64,000 nt of DNA from Nitrospirales bacterium. GTDB lineage: Bacteria; Nitrospirota; Nitrospiria; Nitrospirales; UBA8639. Of the stretch, positions 50,838 through 57,464 are shown piece after piece. The notes beneath the pieces are model-generated. The model saw only the letters and a list, made by a program, of their open reading frames with translations. It was not told the origin of the DNA and ran no database searches. The translations under genes were made by a program, and so were the position numbers. The stretch is taken from the NCBI GenBank assembly GCA_022825885.1, contig JAJDVY010000004.1:1-64000 (forward strand). Direction: 5' to 3'. The stretch's first letter is position 1; every line of letters begins with the position of its first letter.

Positions 50838-50949
50838 CGCTTCCGTGTGAGCAGAATTTCGACCAAGATGTGGTCGTTCACTCCTTAAGTGATACTTTTC
50901 CTTCTCTTCTCTTTCAAGGGGAACTATGCATTTAAAGGCGTGCCATGGT

Positions 50950-50981
50950 CTTGAAGTCTTGAAGTCTTGAAGTCTTGAAAG
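50950..50981. repeat. Tandem 8-base repeat CTTGAAGT (about 4 units)
   Basis: Three perfect CTTGAAGT units (50950-50973) are followed by CTTGAAAG. It lies just upstream of a small broken ORF and its ribosome-binding site, in the 50838-51118 intergenic stretch that holds no other gene. Confidence 0.85.
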
Positions 50982-50990
50982 GAGGGGAAG

Positions 50991-51153
50991 ATGGCACAGC
51001 TCACTGAAGAAGAGATATGTATATAATGGACTTGCAGGAGCTAGAGCAATCCGTTTGGCACAAGGAGAATTAACAGAGGCAGAGGAAGAACTATACAAGT
51101 ATCGGTTTAAGCATAGGATCATGGCTCTCTATGAAAGCTCGAAGGCTGTTTAG
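50991..51153 (+). pseudogene. Small ORF disrupted near a TA-rich repeat
   Basis: After GGAGGGG a start reads MAQLTEEEI, then stops. With one base inserted in ATATGTATATAAT (about 51014-51027) it continues as IYNGLAGARAIRLAQGEL and EAEEELYKYRFKHRIM to a TAG at 51151, giving about 54 residues. The in-register continuation suggests a short gene broken by a one-base change in a slippery TA tract. No family recognised. Either a pseudogene or a sequencing error. Confidence 0.4.
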
Positions 51154-51349
51154 TAAGGTCTTTCATCTGTTCAAGGCATTTCCTCAGACTATTGAAGCTG
51201 TCAGCCTTTTGAGTTTTTGTTGCAGCATCGAGGGCCATTCTTTCTTCAGCAGGATTGACAATTTCATTTAGAAACGGTTCCACACGAAGAAGTTCACGTC
51301 TTTCAAGAACATTGAGAAGATGGGCTATAAGAACTTGAAGAGCCGACAC
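51119..51349 (-). CDS. Hypothetical protein, doubtful
   Basis: A 76-residue frame with GTG start, helical in character (ALQVLIAHLLNVLERRELLR, LNEIVNPAEERMALD). Its 3' end overlaps the broken small ORF on the other strand. Upstream in the same frame residues rich in Cys/Arg read for about 25 codons without an ATG. No family recognised; it may be a gene remnant of the accessory island. 51350-51580 shows nothing further. Confidence 0.35.
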   Translation of the reverse strand: MSALQVLIAHLLNVLERRELLRVEPFLNEIVNPAEERMALDAATKTQKADSFNSLRKCLEQMKDLTKQPSSFHREP

Positions 51350-51580
51350 GTGGCAAGGAGGTCTCCAACAGTAGGCTCTCGTTTTGCATCTTGGTCGTTC
51401 ATAAGGAGCAATCCTTTCTTTTATAGAAAACAGCGAATTCGTGAAGCCTGCCAGCTAGACGCTTGCAGTTGAAGAAGCTTGATCCTGATGCAGTATCATA
51501 AGACTACGATTCGACGCGAGAAGAACTCAAAGAGACGTTTTGCATTCCATCAAAACAAGATGTTGGGTAACGGTTGTGGT

Positions 51581-52510
51581 TTACAGGCCAAACTGAATGC
51601 CCGTCTGATTCCGAAACTCCCAACAGGTGTTGGCATAATCCTTAAAGGCTTGTCGCGCCCTCAGCACATTCGACCATCGTTTGATCCAAGGCTTTCGCCC
51701 ACCCATGAAGTGCCAGAGCTTGGGGTCAGCCGTGGCGTCTCGCATCTGCTCACGCAACTCGTCTGAAATATCCCGAAACTTGGCTTTGCGCTGTTCTACA
51801 TCCCGAACAATTCCAGGGCGCAAATTCCATTTAAGCGGCAATTTGTACCATCGTTCTGCAAAAAACTCATTGAGTCGGTCCTGATCGGGAAACTCTCGAA
51901 AAGGCCGGAGTTTGTCGAAGCTGGCAAGGTCGGCATAATGAGGATGCTCGCCTCGAATGGTGTCACACTCCATCACCAACACGCCTGAATTGAAGTAGTT
52001 CTCTTTTGGGACAAAGCCCAACCCGGCTATCCGGTCAATATAGTTCATTCGTTTGCGTCGAGTCCGGGCAGGTCGAAACACGTCTGAGACTCGTGTGTTG
52101 AGAATCCGTCGTTCCAAGAACGTCACTTGGCCCATATCCGTACACGCACCAATCGGCATCCCCCTGAGGTCGGTTGATAGGAGTTCCCATACGTCACCCT
52201 TGACCAAGGTATCGGCGTCAATGAACAGGCACCGTTCCTTCTCTAGGCCGGGCAGAAGAAGTGGGAGCAGACTGACTGTCGGAAACCGTGGATTGACGTA
52301 TGCCTCCAATCCCGTTGCCTCAAAGTTCTTCACCTGAATGGACATTCCGCACGTTTCGTTGACGCCCTGAATCGCGTACTGGTTCTGTTCCGTGATCCCA
52401 TCAACATACATCGTAACATCAACAGGTTGGCTGGCATTCTTCCAGAGAGAATAAATGGAGACCAAGGCGGGTAGCACGTAGGCGGCATTCACGCCATAAA
52501 TGACTTGCAC
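51581..52510 (-). CDS. Family 8 glycosyltransferase
   Basis: From GTG 52510, with GGGGAG upstream, the 309-residue product has the GT8 pattern: MQVIYGVNAAYVLPALVSIY, the DxD motif in CLFIDADTLVKGD (about residue 93), and NSGVLVMECD. The C-terminal half is rich in Arg/Trp. GT8 enzymes transfer galactose or glucose from nucleotide sugars, typically to lipopolysaccharide. The acceptor is unknown. It stands alone at the edge of the accessory island. The 52511-52827 gap upstream shows no gene. Confidence 0.8.
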   Translation of the reverse strand: MQVIYGVNAAYVLPALVSIYSLWKNASQPVDVTMYVDGITEQNQYAIQGVNETCGMSIQVKNFEATGLEAYVNPRFPTVSLLPLLLPGLEKERCLFIDADTLVKGDVWELLSTDLRGMPIGACTDMGQVTFLERRILNTRVSDVFRPARTRRKRMNYIDRIAGLGFVPKENYFNSGVLVMECDTIRGEHPHYADLASFDKLRPFREFPDQDRLNEFFAERWYKLPLKWNLRPGIVRDVEQRKAKFRDISDELREQMRDATADPKLWHFMGGRKPWIKRWSNVLRARQAFKDYANTCWEFRNQTGIQFGL

Positions 52511-52827
52511 GGCAGGCTCCCCTTGAGAGTACAGGTTTAGGAGCGGCCTGACTGGACAGAGTCGGGCCTTGCTGTATCCCCCAGGTAATGGAAGACCCTG
52601 CGTATTTACCGTTGTTGGGACAATCTGCCGAGCACGGGAGCTACCCGCAATCACAGATCAGGTTCTTGTATTGGCAGGAGACCCGACGAAGGGCCACCTG
52701 AGAGATACAGCAGAGGAAAACGTAGCAAATTGTGAAGAGGGAATCAAGAACGAGAGAAAAGGATGTTATGGCTGCATTTTAGTATGTGTGTATATTAAAA
52801 TCTCTCAACACGAAAGTAAGGATAGGT

Positions 52828-52901
52828 GCCCTCATAGCTCAATGGAAAAGAGCACCCACCTACTAAGTGGATGGTTGTTGGTTCGAGTCCAACTGAGGGC
52901 A
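52828..52901 (+). tRNA. tRNA-Arg-like gene with unusual ACT anticodon
   Basis: A full cloverleaf folds: acceptor GCCCTCA/TGAGGGC, D-arm GCTC/GAGC, anticodon stem CCCAC/GTGGA with a C-A mismatch at its base, and T-arm GTTGG/CCAAC. The body closely resembles a bacterial tRNA-Arg(TCT), but the loop reads CTACTAA, giving anticodon ACT (52862-52864). The Arg-type A20, C35 and discriminator A remain, and no long variable arm is present, unlike tRNA-Ser. CCA is not encoded. GT at 52826-52827 could extend the acceptor by pairing with 52902-52903. Confidence 0.7.
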
Positions 52902-53138
52902 CACTATCTTTTTTTATTTCATGGCGATTCCCGCCGTTAAATATATAATTCCCTTGTAAGGAAGGGCGATGGGGAGGTAGACACTGAAAGTTGTATATGA
53001 ATCAGATAACTGCTCATCTCCCCAATTCACTCGTCGAAGCCGTGCAGATATCAAGAGGTGGTTTGGGAAATCTGAACAAGGGGGATAAGTGACATTTCTG
53101 CTCACGAGCGGCATTATTGCTGTCCATGAGGAGGAATC

Positions 53139-53450
53139 ATGACGAGACGACCACGCCGAAACCATAGCCCGACGTTTACGGCCAAGGTGGCGCTTGCCGC
53201 CATCCGCGGGGACCAGACGCTGGCGGAACTCGCCCAGCCGTTTGACGTACATCCGAACCAGCTCAAGCAGGGGAAGGATCAACTCCTGACGGGCATGACG
53301 GATGTCTTCGAGGGCGGGGTGAAGAAGGCGGCGCTCCCCGAGTCCGATGTCACCGCGCTGCATGCGAAAATCGGGCACTGGACCCTGGAGAATGATTTTT
53401 TAGCGGGTGCGCTCAGCAAGACCGGTCTGTTGCCGAGCGCAAGACGCTGA
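53139..53450 (+). CDS. IS3-family transposase OrfA
   Basis: The 103-residue protein is OrfA of an IS3 group element: MTRRPRRNHSPTFTAKVALA, TLAELAQPFDVHPNQLKQGK (helix-turn-helix), and WTLENDFLAGALSKTGLL with leucine-zipper spacing. AGGAGGAATC precedes the ATG. It ends at TGA overlapping the next start. The element looks incomplete, since OrfB is truncated. The 52902-53138 stretch upstream holds no gene, and an intact terminal repeat was not found. Confidence 0.85.
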   Translation: MTRRPRRNHSPTFTAKVALAAIRGDQTLAELAQPFDVHPNQLKQGKDQLLTGMTDVFEGGVKKAALPESDVTALHAKIGHWTLENDFLAGALSKTGLLPSARR

Positions 53451-53734
53451 TGGCCCGCACGCACCGCGTGAGTATCAGCCGTCAAGCCCGGCTGCTTGGC
53501 ATCAGTCGGGGCAGTGTCGACTCCCAGCGTCGCCCTCCCTCGGCCGTCGAGCTGGCGTTGATGCGCCGGCTGGATGCGTTGTATGTGGAGTATCCCTTTG
53601 CGGGCAGTCAGGCCATCGAACGATACCTTGAAGATTTTGACGACCTTGCCATAGCCTTGGAACGGCTGCGCGAGCCCGCCGACCCTGTACTGGATTGGAA
53701 TCAGGTGAAGCGGGAGCTACTCCATTCAGATTAA
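53450..53734 (+). pseudogene. IS3 OrfB remnant fused to an antitoxin tail
   Basis: The first half (to about 53613) is OrfB N-terminal sequence: RVSISRQARLLGISRGSV, ALMRRLDALYVEYPFAG. At GSQ the homology stops before the DDE domain. The continuation AIERYLEDFDDLAIALERL and PVLDWNQVKRELLHSD matches the C-terminal part of RelB/RHH-type antitoxins. An IS end or deletion has joined the two. No toxin gene follows. 53735-53974 shows no gene. Confidence 0.75.
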
Positions 53735-53873
53735 ACAGAGTACAGCCAAGTTTCATACAGTGAAACCAAAACCTAGCGTCCCCGCACAGCAATCGTCGCC
53801 AAACTCGACGCCATTAAGGCCCAGGCCCGAGAAACAAACAAGGTATCACGGGTAATTTTGAGGACAATTAGGC

Positions 53874-53879
53874 TATAAT
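53874..53879 (+). promoter_or_regulatory. Possible -10 box for the AAA/DUF4276 operon
   Basis: A perfect TATAAT lies about 95 bases before the ATPase ATG. No convincing -35 hexamer stands at 16-18 bases, so it may be weak or activator dependent. Confidence 0.3.
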
Positions 53880-53974
53880 CTACAAATCAGCAACGTCGTC
53901 CGGATAGTTCTCACAACGTCATGGGCACATCAACCGGCTAGCACAGCAATTCCCCGAAAACGAAGAGCGGCAAC

Positions 53975-55081
53975 ATGGGAGATTCTTTAGACAAGCTGAC
54001 GATACGAGGATTCAAATCTATCCGTGAACTGGAAGATTTCGAATTCAAGGATCTGAACGTGTTGATTGGCGCCAATGGCGCGGGTAAGAGTAACCTCATT
54101 TCCTTTTTCCGCCTGCTGCAAGCCATCATCAAGGGGAACCTGAATGAATACGTTCGAGATAGCGGAGGGATCAGCGACCTGCTCTTTAACGGACGAAAGA
54201 CCACGCGAGGACTTAAGTTTGAAACGCGCTTCGGTCCCCGCGGATACCGTTTCACGATTAAGCCCGGACCATCGGAGGACTGTGCGCTAACAGACGAAGA
54301 GCGCTATTATGAACATGGAAGATCGAAGTGGTGTACCCTTGGAGACAGCCCGGATGGGCAATCCTTACTTGTGAAAGAGGCGACAGGAAAGTCCCGCGAC
54401 GCCCAATATAGTGAGCTTGTCTATGATTCCATATCTTCATGGAAAATCTATCATTTTCATGACACCAGTGAAACGGCTGCGATGCGGCATAAAGAGATCG
54501 TCCAGGACAACAAGGCTCTACGCTTCAATGCCTCGAATATTGCGCCGTTCCTGTTGAGACTAAGAAACGAAGACGAAGGAACCTACGAAGAAATCCTCCA
54601 GTCTTGCAAATTGGTGATTCCCTATCTGGATGATTTCCTTCTCGACGTGGAACACTTCGGGCAGAAAGCGAAAGTGGCGCTTTCATGGAGGGGCAAGGGG
54701 TCGGATTACCCGATGCAACCGTATCATTTTTCTGACGGAAGCATCAGGTTTATCTGCCTGGCAACGGCTTTATTGCAACCAGAGCCACCCTCTTCCTTGA
54801 TAATCGACGAACCGGAATTGGGACTCCATCCTGCAGCAATCAGCATTTTGGCAGAGCTCATTCAAAACGCCTCCAAGCACACTCAACTCATCGTGGCGAC
54901 GCAATCACCGGCGTTGATCGACAACTTTTCGGTCGAAGACGTCATTGTGGTCAGCAGGAAAGATGGCGCATCCACGTTTGAACGTCTGAACGAAAAAGAT
55001 TATCGAGCATGGCTTGAAAGCTACTCCGTGGGCGAACTTTGGAGCAAAAACGTCATTTCCGGCGGACCTGTTTATGAGTAA
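53975..55081 (+). CDS. AAA family ATPase (OLD/RecF-like), defence-type
   Basis: The 368-residue protein begins MGDSLDKLTIRGFKSIRELE. It has the ABC-type Walker A GANGAGKS at about 32-39, then signature FSDGSIRFICLATAL, Walker B SLIIDEPELGLHPAAI and QLIVATQSPALIDNF with the H-loop position Gln. This AAA15/OLD-like architecture is common in phage defence (PARIS AriA, Gabija, retron partners). It overlaps the downstream TOPRIM-like gene by eight bases (ATGAGTAA), so the two act together. Confidence 0.85.
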   Translation: MGDSLDKLTIRGFKSIRELEDFEFKDLNVLIGANGAGKSNLISFFRLLQAIIKGNLNEYVRDSGGISDLLFNGRKTTRGLKFETRFGPRGYRFTIKPGPSEDCALTDEERYYEHGRSKWCTLGDSPDGQSLLVKEATGKSRDAQYSELVYDSISSWKIYHFHDTSETAAMRHKEIVQDNKALRFNASNIAPFLLRLRNEDEGTYEEILQSCKLVIPYLDDFLLDVEHFGQKAKVALSWRGKGSDYPMQPYHFSDGSIRFICLATALLQPEPPSSLIIDEPELGLHPAAISILAELIQNASKHTQLIVATQSPALIDNFSVEDVIVVSRKDGASTFERLNEKDYRAWLESYSVGELWSKNVISGGPVYE

Positions 55082-55745
55082 GCCTATCGTAGTAGTGCTC
55101 GCAGAGGGTTCAACTGAGCAGATCTTTGTCAGAGATCTTTTATCTCCTTACCTGGCACAAGCTGGGGTACACATAACTTCGACTATCCTGACGAAACCAG
55201 GTCAGAATGGCGGTGACGTTCGTTTTGCACGCGCCAAAAACGACATCGAGCGTCATCTCAAGCAAAGAAGAGAAACATGGTTGACACTACTTGTCGATTA
55301 CTACGGCATCAAGAGTGACTGGCCCGGGTACCGGGAGTCAAAACGTGAAATACAACATTCGTCGAAAGCCCGAGTGATGAATGAAGCGACCCGGAAGCAG
55401 GTCAACGAACTCTTCGGAAAGCTAGATGCAGAGCGGCGATTCATACCATACGTTTCGATGTTTGAGTTTGAGGCTTTGCTCTTCAGTGATGCCGACATCC
55501 TAGCGCGAAAGCTGAATGTGCGGATGAAAGAAGTAAAACAAATTCTTTCTCGATGTGGCGAACCGGAGCAGATTAACGACAAGGCTCAGACTGCCCCATC
55601 CAAGCGACTGGAAATCTTATCCAGCCGATTCAAAAAAACCACGACGGGTATCAATATCGCTCGAGAAATCGGTATCGATACAATGCGCAAAGCATGTCCC
55701 CTTTTCAACGAATGGATAAACAAATTGGAGAATTTGAAACACTGA
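55074..55745 (+). CDS. DUF4276 (TOPRIM-like) protein
   Basis: Starting at ATG 55074, overlapping the ATPase stop, the 223-residue protein has VVLAEGSTEQIFVRDLLSPY with the TOPRIM glutamate, LTLLVDYYGIKSDWPG and SMFEFEALLFSDAD. These are DUF4276 hallmarks. TOPRIM nucleases pair with AAA ATPases in OLD-type systems; in PARIS the partner is the related DUF4435. A direct nuclease role is inferred, not shown. Together with the ATPase it forms a compact two-gene module. Confidence 0.85.
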   Translation: MSKPIVVVLAEGSTEQIFVRDLLSPYLAQAGVHITSTILTKPGQNGGDVRFARAKNDIERHLKQRRETWLTLLVDYYGIKSDWPGYRESKREIQHSSKARVMNEATRKQVNELFGKLDAERRFIPYVSMFEFEALLFSDADILARKLNVRMKEVKQILSRCGEPEQINDKAQTAPSKRLEILSSRFKKTTTGINIAREIGIDTMRKACPLFNEWINKLENLKH

Positions 55746-55870
55746 ACATAGTGCGATGAACGGCGGTCTAGGACACAGACGAAATCATCGTCTAAACGGA
55801 AATCCATGTTGTTTCCATTCACTCGCATGGAACGGTTTTTATTTCTTCTTTCTATCTCAATTGATAAAAA

Positions 55871-55967
55871 TGCGCCAATTAAAATAATTAATATGGCGCA
55901 ATGCACTTGATTTTACCGAATTAAACTGCTTATATGGCACAGTTAAATATTAATTGCGCCATATAAG
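55871..55967. promoter_or_regulatory. Multi-site dyad operator upstream of the Fic gene
   Basis: CTTATATGGCACAGTT (55929-55944) and AATTGCGCCATATAAG (55952-55967) form a 39-base dyad with two mismatches, ending one base before the ATG at 55969. A second pair TGCGCCA (55871-55877) and TGGCGCA (55894-55900) lies upstream. Half-site TATGGCGCAA recurs. The Fic protein's own N-terminal helix-turn-helix is the obvious candidate ligand. The preceding 55746-55870 part holds no gene. Confidence 0.75.
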
Positions 55968-55968
55968 T

Positions 55969-57282
55969 ATGCCAAAACAGATTCCTGAAACGGAGTTGGA
56001 TGCCATCGTCGAAGCGATCGGGCAATTTCCTGAGGGAGCGGCGGTATCTGAGGTGCGCGGTGCGCTGGATATCGAGCTTTCTCGCCGGACGCTGCAACGA
56101 CGGCTGGCGCGACTGGTGAAGGCCGGTCGGCTGGAAACATTTGGCGAAGGTCGCGCCCAACGCTATCGCGTGAGTCCCCTGCCGGATGAAGCCAGCCCTC
56201 CGGCCACCACGGAAACCGACGACGATGTTGTGGTTCCTCCGTCCGCAGGCAGGAGGGATACTCAAGTCGAGGCTGAACAACCGATTCAGACACGGCCCAT
56301 TTGCAGCCTTGATCTTCTGGCAGCCTATCAACCGAACCGCACGTTTTACCTGGACGAGTCCACTCGATGCCGTCTGCGGGAATTGGGACAGTCTCTGGAT
56401 GGGCCTCAACCGGCCAGAACCCATGCGCATCCCCGTTGGATGATCGACCTGATATGGAATTCCAGTCGTCTGGAAGGGAATACCTACTCGCTGCTGGAAA
56501 CCTGTCAATTCCTGCACACCGGTCAACCGGCCGGGAGCAAGGGTGACCATGAAATTCAGATGATCATGAATCACAAGGCGGCCATCGACCTGCTGCTGTC
56601 CGGAGATTCGGTGAATGAAATCGCCTTCAACCACGAGACCATCTGCAAGCTCCAGGTATTGCTTTCGGGAAAGCCATGGGCCGATTCACGATTTTCTGAA
56701 CGGATTCAGATCCAAGGCGTTGCGCCCCTGCTCCTCAAAGCTCATGCGATTGCAGACCCCTTCGAGCAGGCAGTTTTTGCCCTGGTGCACGTGCCCCACC
56801 TGCACGCCTTCGAGCCCATCAACCAACGCGTGTCGCGACTGGCGGCCAACATCCCATTTATTCGGATGGGCTTGGTTCCGTTGTCTTTCGTGGACGTACC
56901 GGAGAATCTCTACGCCAACGGCTTACTGCGTATTTCCGAACTGAACCGTCCCGACCTGTTGCGCGACCTTTTCGTGTGGGCTTATGAACGTTCGTGCAGA
57001 CGCTACTCCACCGCACAGCAATTGCCGGGAGAACGGGATCTCTTTGGCATGCAATACCGCGAACCGATAAGAAAACTGGTCTCGAACGTGGTACACGCAC
57101 ACATGAGCAAGCCTCGCGCCACTGCCAGGATCAAGGCGTTTGCTCTTGGCTGGGTTCCGGTCAATGACCAACAGCGTTTTATCGAGATCGTCGAAACCGA
57201 ATTGCTGAGTTTGTCCGAAGGCAACGTCGCCCGTTATCATATTCGTCCAACGGAGTTCCGCAACTGGCAGCAATCCTGGTAG
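55969..57282 (+). CDS. Fic-family protein with N-terminal winged helix
   Basis: The 437-residue product begins MPKQIPETELDAIVEAIGQF. A DNA-binding winged-helix region (about 1-70, LSRRTLQRRLARLVKAGRLE) leads to a Fic domain. The inhibitory motif SSRLEGN and the catalytic-type loop HAFEPINQRVSRLAAN (HxFxxxN..R variant) are visible. Fic proteins usually AMPylate targets; this loop lacks the GNGR glycines, so activity is uncertain. An operator dyad touches its start, indicating autoregulation. Confidence 0.85.
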   Translation: MPKQIPETELDAIVEAIGQFPEGAAVSEVRGALDIELSRRTLQRRLARLVKAGRLETFGEGRAQRYRVSPLPDEASPPATTETDDDVVVPPSAGRRDTQVEAEQPIQTRPICSLDLLAAYQPNRTFYLDESTRCRLRELGQSLDGPQPARTHAHPRWMIDLIWNSSRLEGNTYSLLETCQFLHTGQPAGSKGDHEIQMIMNHKAAIDLLLSGDSVNEIAFNHETICKLQVLLSGKPWADSRFSERIQIQGVAPLLLKAHAIADPFEQAVFALVHVPHLHAFEPINQRVSRLAANIPFIRMGLVPLSFVDVPENLYANGLLRISELNRPDLLRDLFVWAYERSCRRYSTAQQLPGERDLFGMQYREPIRKLVSNVVHAHMSKPRATARIKAFALGWVPVNDQQRFIEIVETELLSLSEGNVARYHIRPTEFRNWQQSW

Positions 57283-57464
57283 CCAGTCGATTGCATCGAC
57301 TGCCAAGGAGATGTATTCTTGTTCCAAATGCTGCGGCTGCTTTTCTCGCGCAGCTTCACACACCAACCTTTCATGTGGTAGTGGTCAGACCACCTCACAC
57401 GAGGCCATTCCTGGAACAGCCAAGAAAAAGCCCCATAACATCGCGACGCGACGGGAGGAGGTTG

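Follow-up and report, generated by a model that had tools for sequence, protein, structure and literature searches.

The analysed window, a 64,000-nucleotide stretch of a Nitrospirales contig (JAJDVY010000004.1), contains a real and well-formed class-I tRNA gene in which an arginine-type body bears the anticodon ACT, and tRNAs of the same kind were found elsewhere as cargo of IS1-like transposons. The favoured explanation, to which an even chance is given, is that the gene is an imported tRNA of missense type, probably delivered as the cargo of a mobile element.

Structure of the tRNA gene

The gene and its surrounding signals are as follows:

52828-52901, + strand: tRNA gene of class I with an Arg-type body and the anticodon ACT; CCA not encoded (ARAGORN; Rfam, 64.2 bits; nearest relatives Arg)
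52862-52864, + strand: anticodon ACT, that is A34 C35 U36 (ARAGORN, tRNA numbering)
52855-52871, + strand: anticodon arm, positions 27-43, with a C27.A43 mismatch at 52855/52871 (tRNA numbering)
52791-52796, + strand: possible -10 element TATATT, without a convincing -35 (by eye)
52909-52915, + strand: run of seven T just 3′ of the tRNA, possible terminator tail (sequence)

ARAGORN delimited the gene at 52828-52902 (+) with anticodon ACT, and the serine label that it assigned derives from the anticodon alone. The score against the Rfam tRNA model was 64.2 bits for a gathering score of 29, the 21st highest among the 40 tRNAs of the genome. The cloverleaf reads GCCCTCA TA GCTC AATGGAAAA GAGC A CCCAC CTACTAA GTGGA TGGTT GTTGG TTCGAGT CCAAC TGAGGGC A, with a variable loop of 5 nt, as in class I. 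A34 corresponds to position 52862, and A20, C35 and the discriminator A73, which a sequence-only reading had already pointed out, are all in place by tRNA numbering, together with U36 and the complete set of invariant and tertiary bases (U8, A14, G18 G19, A15/U48, U33, T54 T55 C56, A58, C61). Pairing is complete in the acceptor (7/7), D (4/4) and T (5/5) stems and reaches 4/5 in the anticodon stem, where C27.A43, overlooked in that reading, is the sole fault; it is considered tolerable because a fault at the same position occurs in 7 of 109 TCT tRNAs among the matches listed. The fold z-score was -2.85 relative to shuffled sequences, and the minimum free energy is 1 kcal/mol below that of the canonical cloverleaf.

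It had been proposed that the gene might be a pseudo-tRNA. Several broken stems or lost invariant bases would mark such a gene, and neither was found: all pairs but one are intact, so that structural decay is not evident, and the complete cloverleaf with its tertiary bases, one mismatch apart, is as would be expected of a functional tRNA gene. A promoter scan of the tRNA strand returned no match at 52791-52796 and no clear promoter for this gene.

Amino acid identity and predicted decoding

The tRNA-Arg identity set consists of A20, C35 and a discriminator A or G, and ArgRS reads A20 and C35 while being tolerant at position 34. This set is present in the window tRNA, whose body groups with tRNA-Arg(UCU): the closest host tRNA is Arg(TCT) (70% identity), phage tRNA-Arg(TCT) genes reach 80-84%, and Arg predominates among the phage tRNAs nearest to it, which bears out the Arg-type body with an ACT anticodon originally described. 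The anticodon pairs with AGU, a serine codon, and not with a codon for arginine. Since the body is of the tRNA-Arg(UCU) group, the molecule would act, if expressed and charged, as a missense tRNA; arginine at AGU should be its product upon arginylation, and the mistranslation that the sequence-only reading considered is plausible.

Cellular and phage tRNA-Arg(UCU), such as the tRNA-Arg(TCT) of Synechococcus phage S-PM2, share with the window tRNA the class-I body, A20, C35, U36 and the loop CTNCTAA, whereas the replacement of U34 by A34 shifts pairing from AGA (Arg) to AGU (Ser). The usual bacterial A34 tRNA, tRNA-Arg(ACG), in which TadA produces inosine, likewise combines A34 and C35 on an Arg body, and differs in having G36 in place of U36. 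Laboratory missense suppressor tRNAs also place the amino acid of their body at the codon of another; unlike them, the window tRNA is a natural gene with a predicted effect. A34 is rare in bacteria outside tRNA-Arg(ACG), as had been stated (PMC4041420, PMC11066159). When ACU was placed on another tRNA body in E. coli, AGU was read at 9.4% and AGG at 0.36%, AGC and AGA were below detection, and no inosine was detected at this anticodon (PMC11066159); one row label in Table 1 of that study appears to be a slip for ACG. These published data argue against inosine at the ACU of the window tRNA.

The host genome (40 tRNAs, assembled in 50 contigs) encodes, besides a normal class-II Ser(GCT), Arg tRNAs with anticodons TCT, CCT, TCG, CCG and ACG; decoding therefore does not depend on the ACT tRNA. 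CCA is encoded by 39 of the 40 tRNAs, the window tRNA being the only exception. Per 1000 codons, AGT occurs 3.3 times in seven core genes nearby, versus 7.8 times in the genes of the island that surrounds the tRNA.

Genomic context

The tRNA lies in an accessory island, as the sequence-only reading had supposed, with the following elements:

50842-57463, no strand: accessory island (~6.6 kb) between M48 peptidase and OMP genes (comparison with related genomes)
51581-52654, - strand: glycosyltransferase family 8 (GT8) gene, with a patchy distribution and some broken copies in the genus (Pfam; genus comparison)
53054-53607, + strand: IS3-family remnant with intact left end, OrfA and a shortened OrfB; not a partner of the tRNA (copy comparison)
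53975-55081, + strand: HEC-01A, AAA_21 ATPase belonging to a defence pair; a neighbour of the tRNA only (Pfam, defence-system search)
55083-55745, + strand: HEC-01B, DUF4276 protein for which an OLD-like Toprim fold is predicted; likewise a neighbour only (domain match, structure model)

The M48 peptidase and OMP genes stand ~50 bp apart in most congeneric genomes compared. This junction has served more than once as an insertion site (cf. L217), and in genome G010 it is occupied by a HEC-01 homologue (81%/73%) but by nothing else of the island. Relatives share the GT8 gene together with a little sequence upstream of it, as far as 52700-52721; for the 330 bp from there to the IS3 end, tRNA included, no relative was found except for a dispersed repeat at 52950-52994. 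This repeat is a copy of a 36-48 bp intergenic sequence (TCCTTTGTAAGGAGGGGCGAAGGGGAGGTAGA) present at many sites in the genus, and a role as a tRNA-linked terminator was discarded, as only 1 of 8 other copies fetched had a tRNA in the stretch. No copy of the window tRNA was identified in 97 relatives, 13 of them congeneric, compared at one genome per species, so the comparison with relatives that had been suggested yielded no second copy; a pattern search for a close viral relative was also negative.

The IS3 remnant was correctly noted as a neighbour. A functional link with the tRNA did not hold, because all IS3 copies share the same left end, at 53054, and this conserved stretch leaves the tRNA outside; no other IS3 copy had a tRNA, and the tRNA was rejected as an IS3 passenger. 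Separately, the truncated OrfB frame continues at 53607-53734 with a C-terminal tail of unrelated sequence (IERYLEDFDDLAIALERL...), and this junction arose from a deletion or an insertion.

Recurrence of ACT on arginine-type bodies

The body pattern with the loop CTACTAA was recovered from 13 viral contigs, 12 genome contigs and one further contig in the phylum; altogether, 26 contigs besides the present one have ACT on such bodies, and stem defects are frequent among them. The loop CTGCTAA was found in 12 viral contigs and CTTCTAA in at least 120. In the phylum, a pattern-matching ACT tRNA was present in just one other (G289) of 296 genomes, and no orthologue of it was detected in six other genomes of its family. 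An integrase link of the ACT tRNAs was set aside, with only 4 of 14 viral contigs showing it.

Pairing faults at anticodon-stem positions 28-31 affect 11/22 ACT tRNAs versus 6/108 TCT tRNAs, and acceptor faults 6/22 versus 1/108, the TCT tRNAs being those among the matches listed. This excess favours decay for some ACT tRNAs, but several retain perfect acceptor and T stems despite faulty anticodon stems (L035, L040, L041, L048, L053, L054).

IS1-like transposons with tRNA cargo

Several ACT/GCT tRNAs lie directly upstream, on the same strand, of an IS1-like or IS1595-like DDE transposase. With transposase queries taken from five ACT/GCT loci, a homologue was located within 500 bp of the tRNA at 9 of 39 ACT/GCT loci and at none of 120 TCT loci among the matches listed (Fisher 1.5e-6; viral contigs only, 7e-4), a comparison that taken alone is partly circular because the ACT/GCT set includes the query loci. 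A protein search then gathered 130 IS1-like transposase loci, and a tRNA stood within 600 bp of the transposase in at least nine, all nine upstream and on the same strand; this is a lower bound, since ARAGORN may miss damaged tRNAs. Three of the nine had served to build the queries (L368, L383, L396) and six had not (L348, L357, L406, L418, L428, L438). With body identity judged by nearest neighbours among 423 tRNAs rather than by isotype models, the nearest reference tRNAs disagreed with the anticodon at eight of the nine loci: Arg/ACT at four, and Leu/AGA, Leu-like/TTA (the weakest), Ser/GGT and Ser/CGC at one each. The ninth, L357, with anticodon AGT, showed no clear clash.

The IS1-like elements are bounded by the inverted repeat GGTAGTGTCTCAGTTTGAA and generate 8-bp target duplications, and GGTAGTGTCTCAGTTTGAAW is often found 3′ of the transposase gene. 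Among 49 complete elements, some redundant (L320-L425), 33 had target duplications of 8-9 bp, and six enclose a tRNA between inverted repeats near GGTAGTGTCTCAGTTTGAA:

L348, 1488-2810: element with tRNA, 8-bp duplication
L383, 1197-3582: element with tRNA
L368, 714-3279: element with tRNA
L406, 324-2924: element with tRNA, 8-bp duplication
L418, 1465-3697: element with tRNA, 8-bp duplication
L056, 3448-6377: element with tRNA, 8-bp duplication; tRNA on the opposite side of the transposase from the others

The L348 element, of 1323 bp, is bounded by perfect 17-bp inverted repeats and the duplication AATCTCCC, with the tRNA inside. Body and anticodon mostly disagree in the six enclosed tRNAs; a tRNA is also found upstream of the transposase at L396, L428 and L438. 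The tRNAs of L406 and L418 have acceptor, D and T arms in common and differ in the anticodon and in an anticodon stem that is still paired, a pattern suggesting that a working structure was kept.

Other passengers also accompany the transposase in the IS1-like family, one of them a weak Abi_2 match at L383:2938-3561, and the family may be a general cargo vehicle. IS1595-type transposases adjoin an ACT tRNA at L054:3279-4432 (tRNA upstream, same strand) and, at L061:407-1676, converge with a class-I GCT tRNA. Where homologues of the L040 and L054 transposases on plasmids and in phages were inspected, no tRNA was present, so that tRNA cargo is confined to a minority. Recoding of the transposase by its own tRNA was rejected: in the transposases AGT encodes serine or variable positions, in one case a conserved Ser of the STSYVER motif, and no conserved Arg. 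We know of no description of mismatched tRNAs carried by transposons; a short search with limited phrasing, which is weak evidence of novelty, found no literature on transposon-borne tRNAs.

Origin of the window tRNA

The window tRNA shares with the IS1-like cargo tRNAs the disagreement between body and anticodon, which in several of them is also Arg/ACT. Inverted repeats matching GGTAGTGTCTCAGTTTGAA with up to 3 mismatches were absent from the window, as was an IS1-like transposase remnant (best E 0.18, non-adjacent), and membership of the cargo class is therefore something that we infer: the tRNA is of the same type, and its carrier is putative. Its identity to transposon-borne ACT tRNAs is 59-72%, below that to phage Arg(TCT), which in the corresponding comparison reaches 80%.

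According to the favoured explanation, this structurally intact tRNA, which belongs to the Arg(UCU) lineage but has A at the wobble position, would have been acquired horizontally, probably with a mobile element of the IS1-like type whose ends are no longer recognisable. CCA would be added after transcription rather than encoded, ArgRS would presumably charge the tRNA, and AGU might be slightly read as arginine. Most likely, the tRNA is weakly expressed or silent and near neutral in the host, because AGU is seldom used and would be contested by tRNA-Ser(GCU). The missing CCA, the absence from 97 relatives and the location inside an insertion count for importation. Also in favour of the explanation are the intact structure, the Arg-type nearest relatives, the recurrence of ACT on Arg-type bodies, the IS1-like elements that enclose mismatched tRNAs, and the reading of AGU by an ACU tRNA with no inosine detected in E. 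coli. Against this explanation are the lack of an IS1-like repeat or transposase remnant in the window, the closer match to phage Arg(TCT) than to transposon-borne tRNAs, the C27.A43 mismatch, the lack of CCA and of a clear promoter, and the fact that the tRNA was not found in a second genome.

The strongest rival, of appreciable probability that falls short of even, is a stray phage-type tRNA-Arg(UCU) that, once transferred, lost its use and drifted, with C27.A43 and the T34-to-A change being only early decay. Phage Arg(TCT) tRNAs are indeed the closest sequences, the ACT class shows excess acceptor and anticodon-stem faults, and the window tRNA is a singleton. However, its remaining stems and invariant bases are intact, and near one particular transposase family ACT recurs on Arg bodies well beyond what chance would give; A34 is therefore not merely random damage in general. 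The cargo explanation and this rival differ in origin and selection, not in predicted chemistry.

It is very improbable that the tRNA is a decoy or resistant tRNA tied to HEC-01, in which the DUF4276 effector might cut tRNAs as a Toprim nuclease, in the manner of the PARIS protein AriB. The layout of HEC-01 (AAA plus Toprim-like) resembles PARIS and OLD, the AAA partner is similar to AriA, and the DUF4276 structure model (pLDDT 88) finds its matches among the C-terminal Toprim domains of OLD proteins (probability 0.99-1.00, E 2e-3 to 3e-3, TM 0.42-0.44). AriB cuts tRNA anticodon stems (PMC12409363), and anticodon-loop changes let phage tRNAs evade such nucleases (PMC10264068). However, no tRNA accompanied HEC-01 homologues at any of 21 loci, three of them congeneric (74-81% identical), so that the tRNA was rejected as a HEC-01 component; AriB gave no match by sequence and came 13th, with low probability, in the fold search. 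Viral relatives of the DUF4276 protein were not found. The decoy role raised in the sequence-only reading thus gained no positive evidence.

A sequencing or assembly error at 52862, hiding an ordinary tRNA-Arg(TCT), is very improbable: the assembly is fragmented (50 contigs) and a single base is decisive, but the same loop occurs in independent genomes and single-base errors are rare a priori. The chance of a genuine serine tRNA reading AGU is almost negligible, for the anticodon alone speaks for it, whereas bacterial SerRS requires the long variable arm of class II in place of the 5-nt loop found here, and a normal class-II Ser(GCT) already exists in the genome.

Implications

To our knowledge, bacteria possess almost no A34 tRNAs apart from Arg(ACG), and any natural tRNA that mistranslates a sense codon would be expected to be purged. 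Under a broader and rather doubtful reading, IS1-like transposons would spread Ser-, Leu- and Arg-bodied tRNAs with foreign or stop anticodons as mobile mistranslation genes, the Ser, Leu and Arg synthetases largely ignoring the changed anticodon position, and the window tRNA would be a stranded member of this group. Such genes may serve addiction, stress-type mistranslation or escape from tRNA-cutting defences. If this were true, mistranslation would have a natural, mobile source in a transposon family with such tRNAs as repeated cargo.
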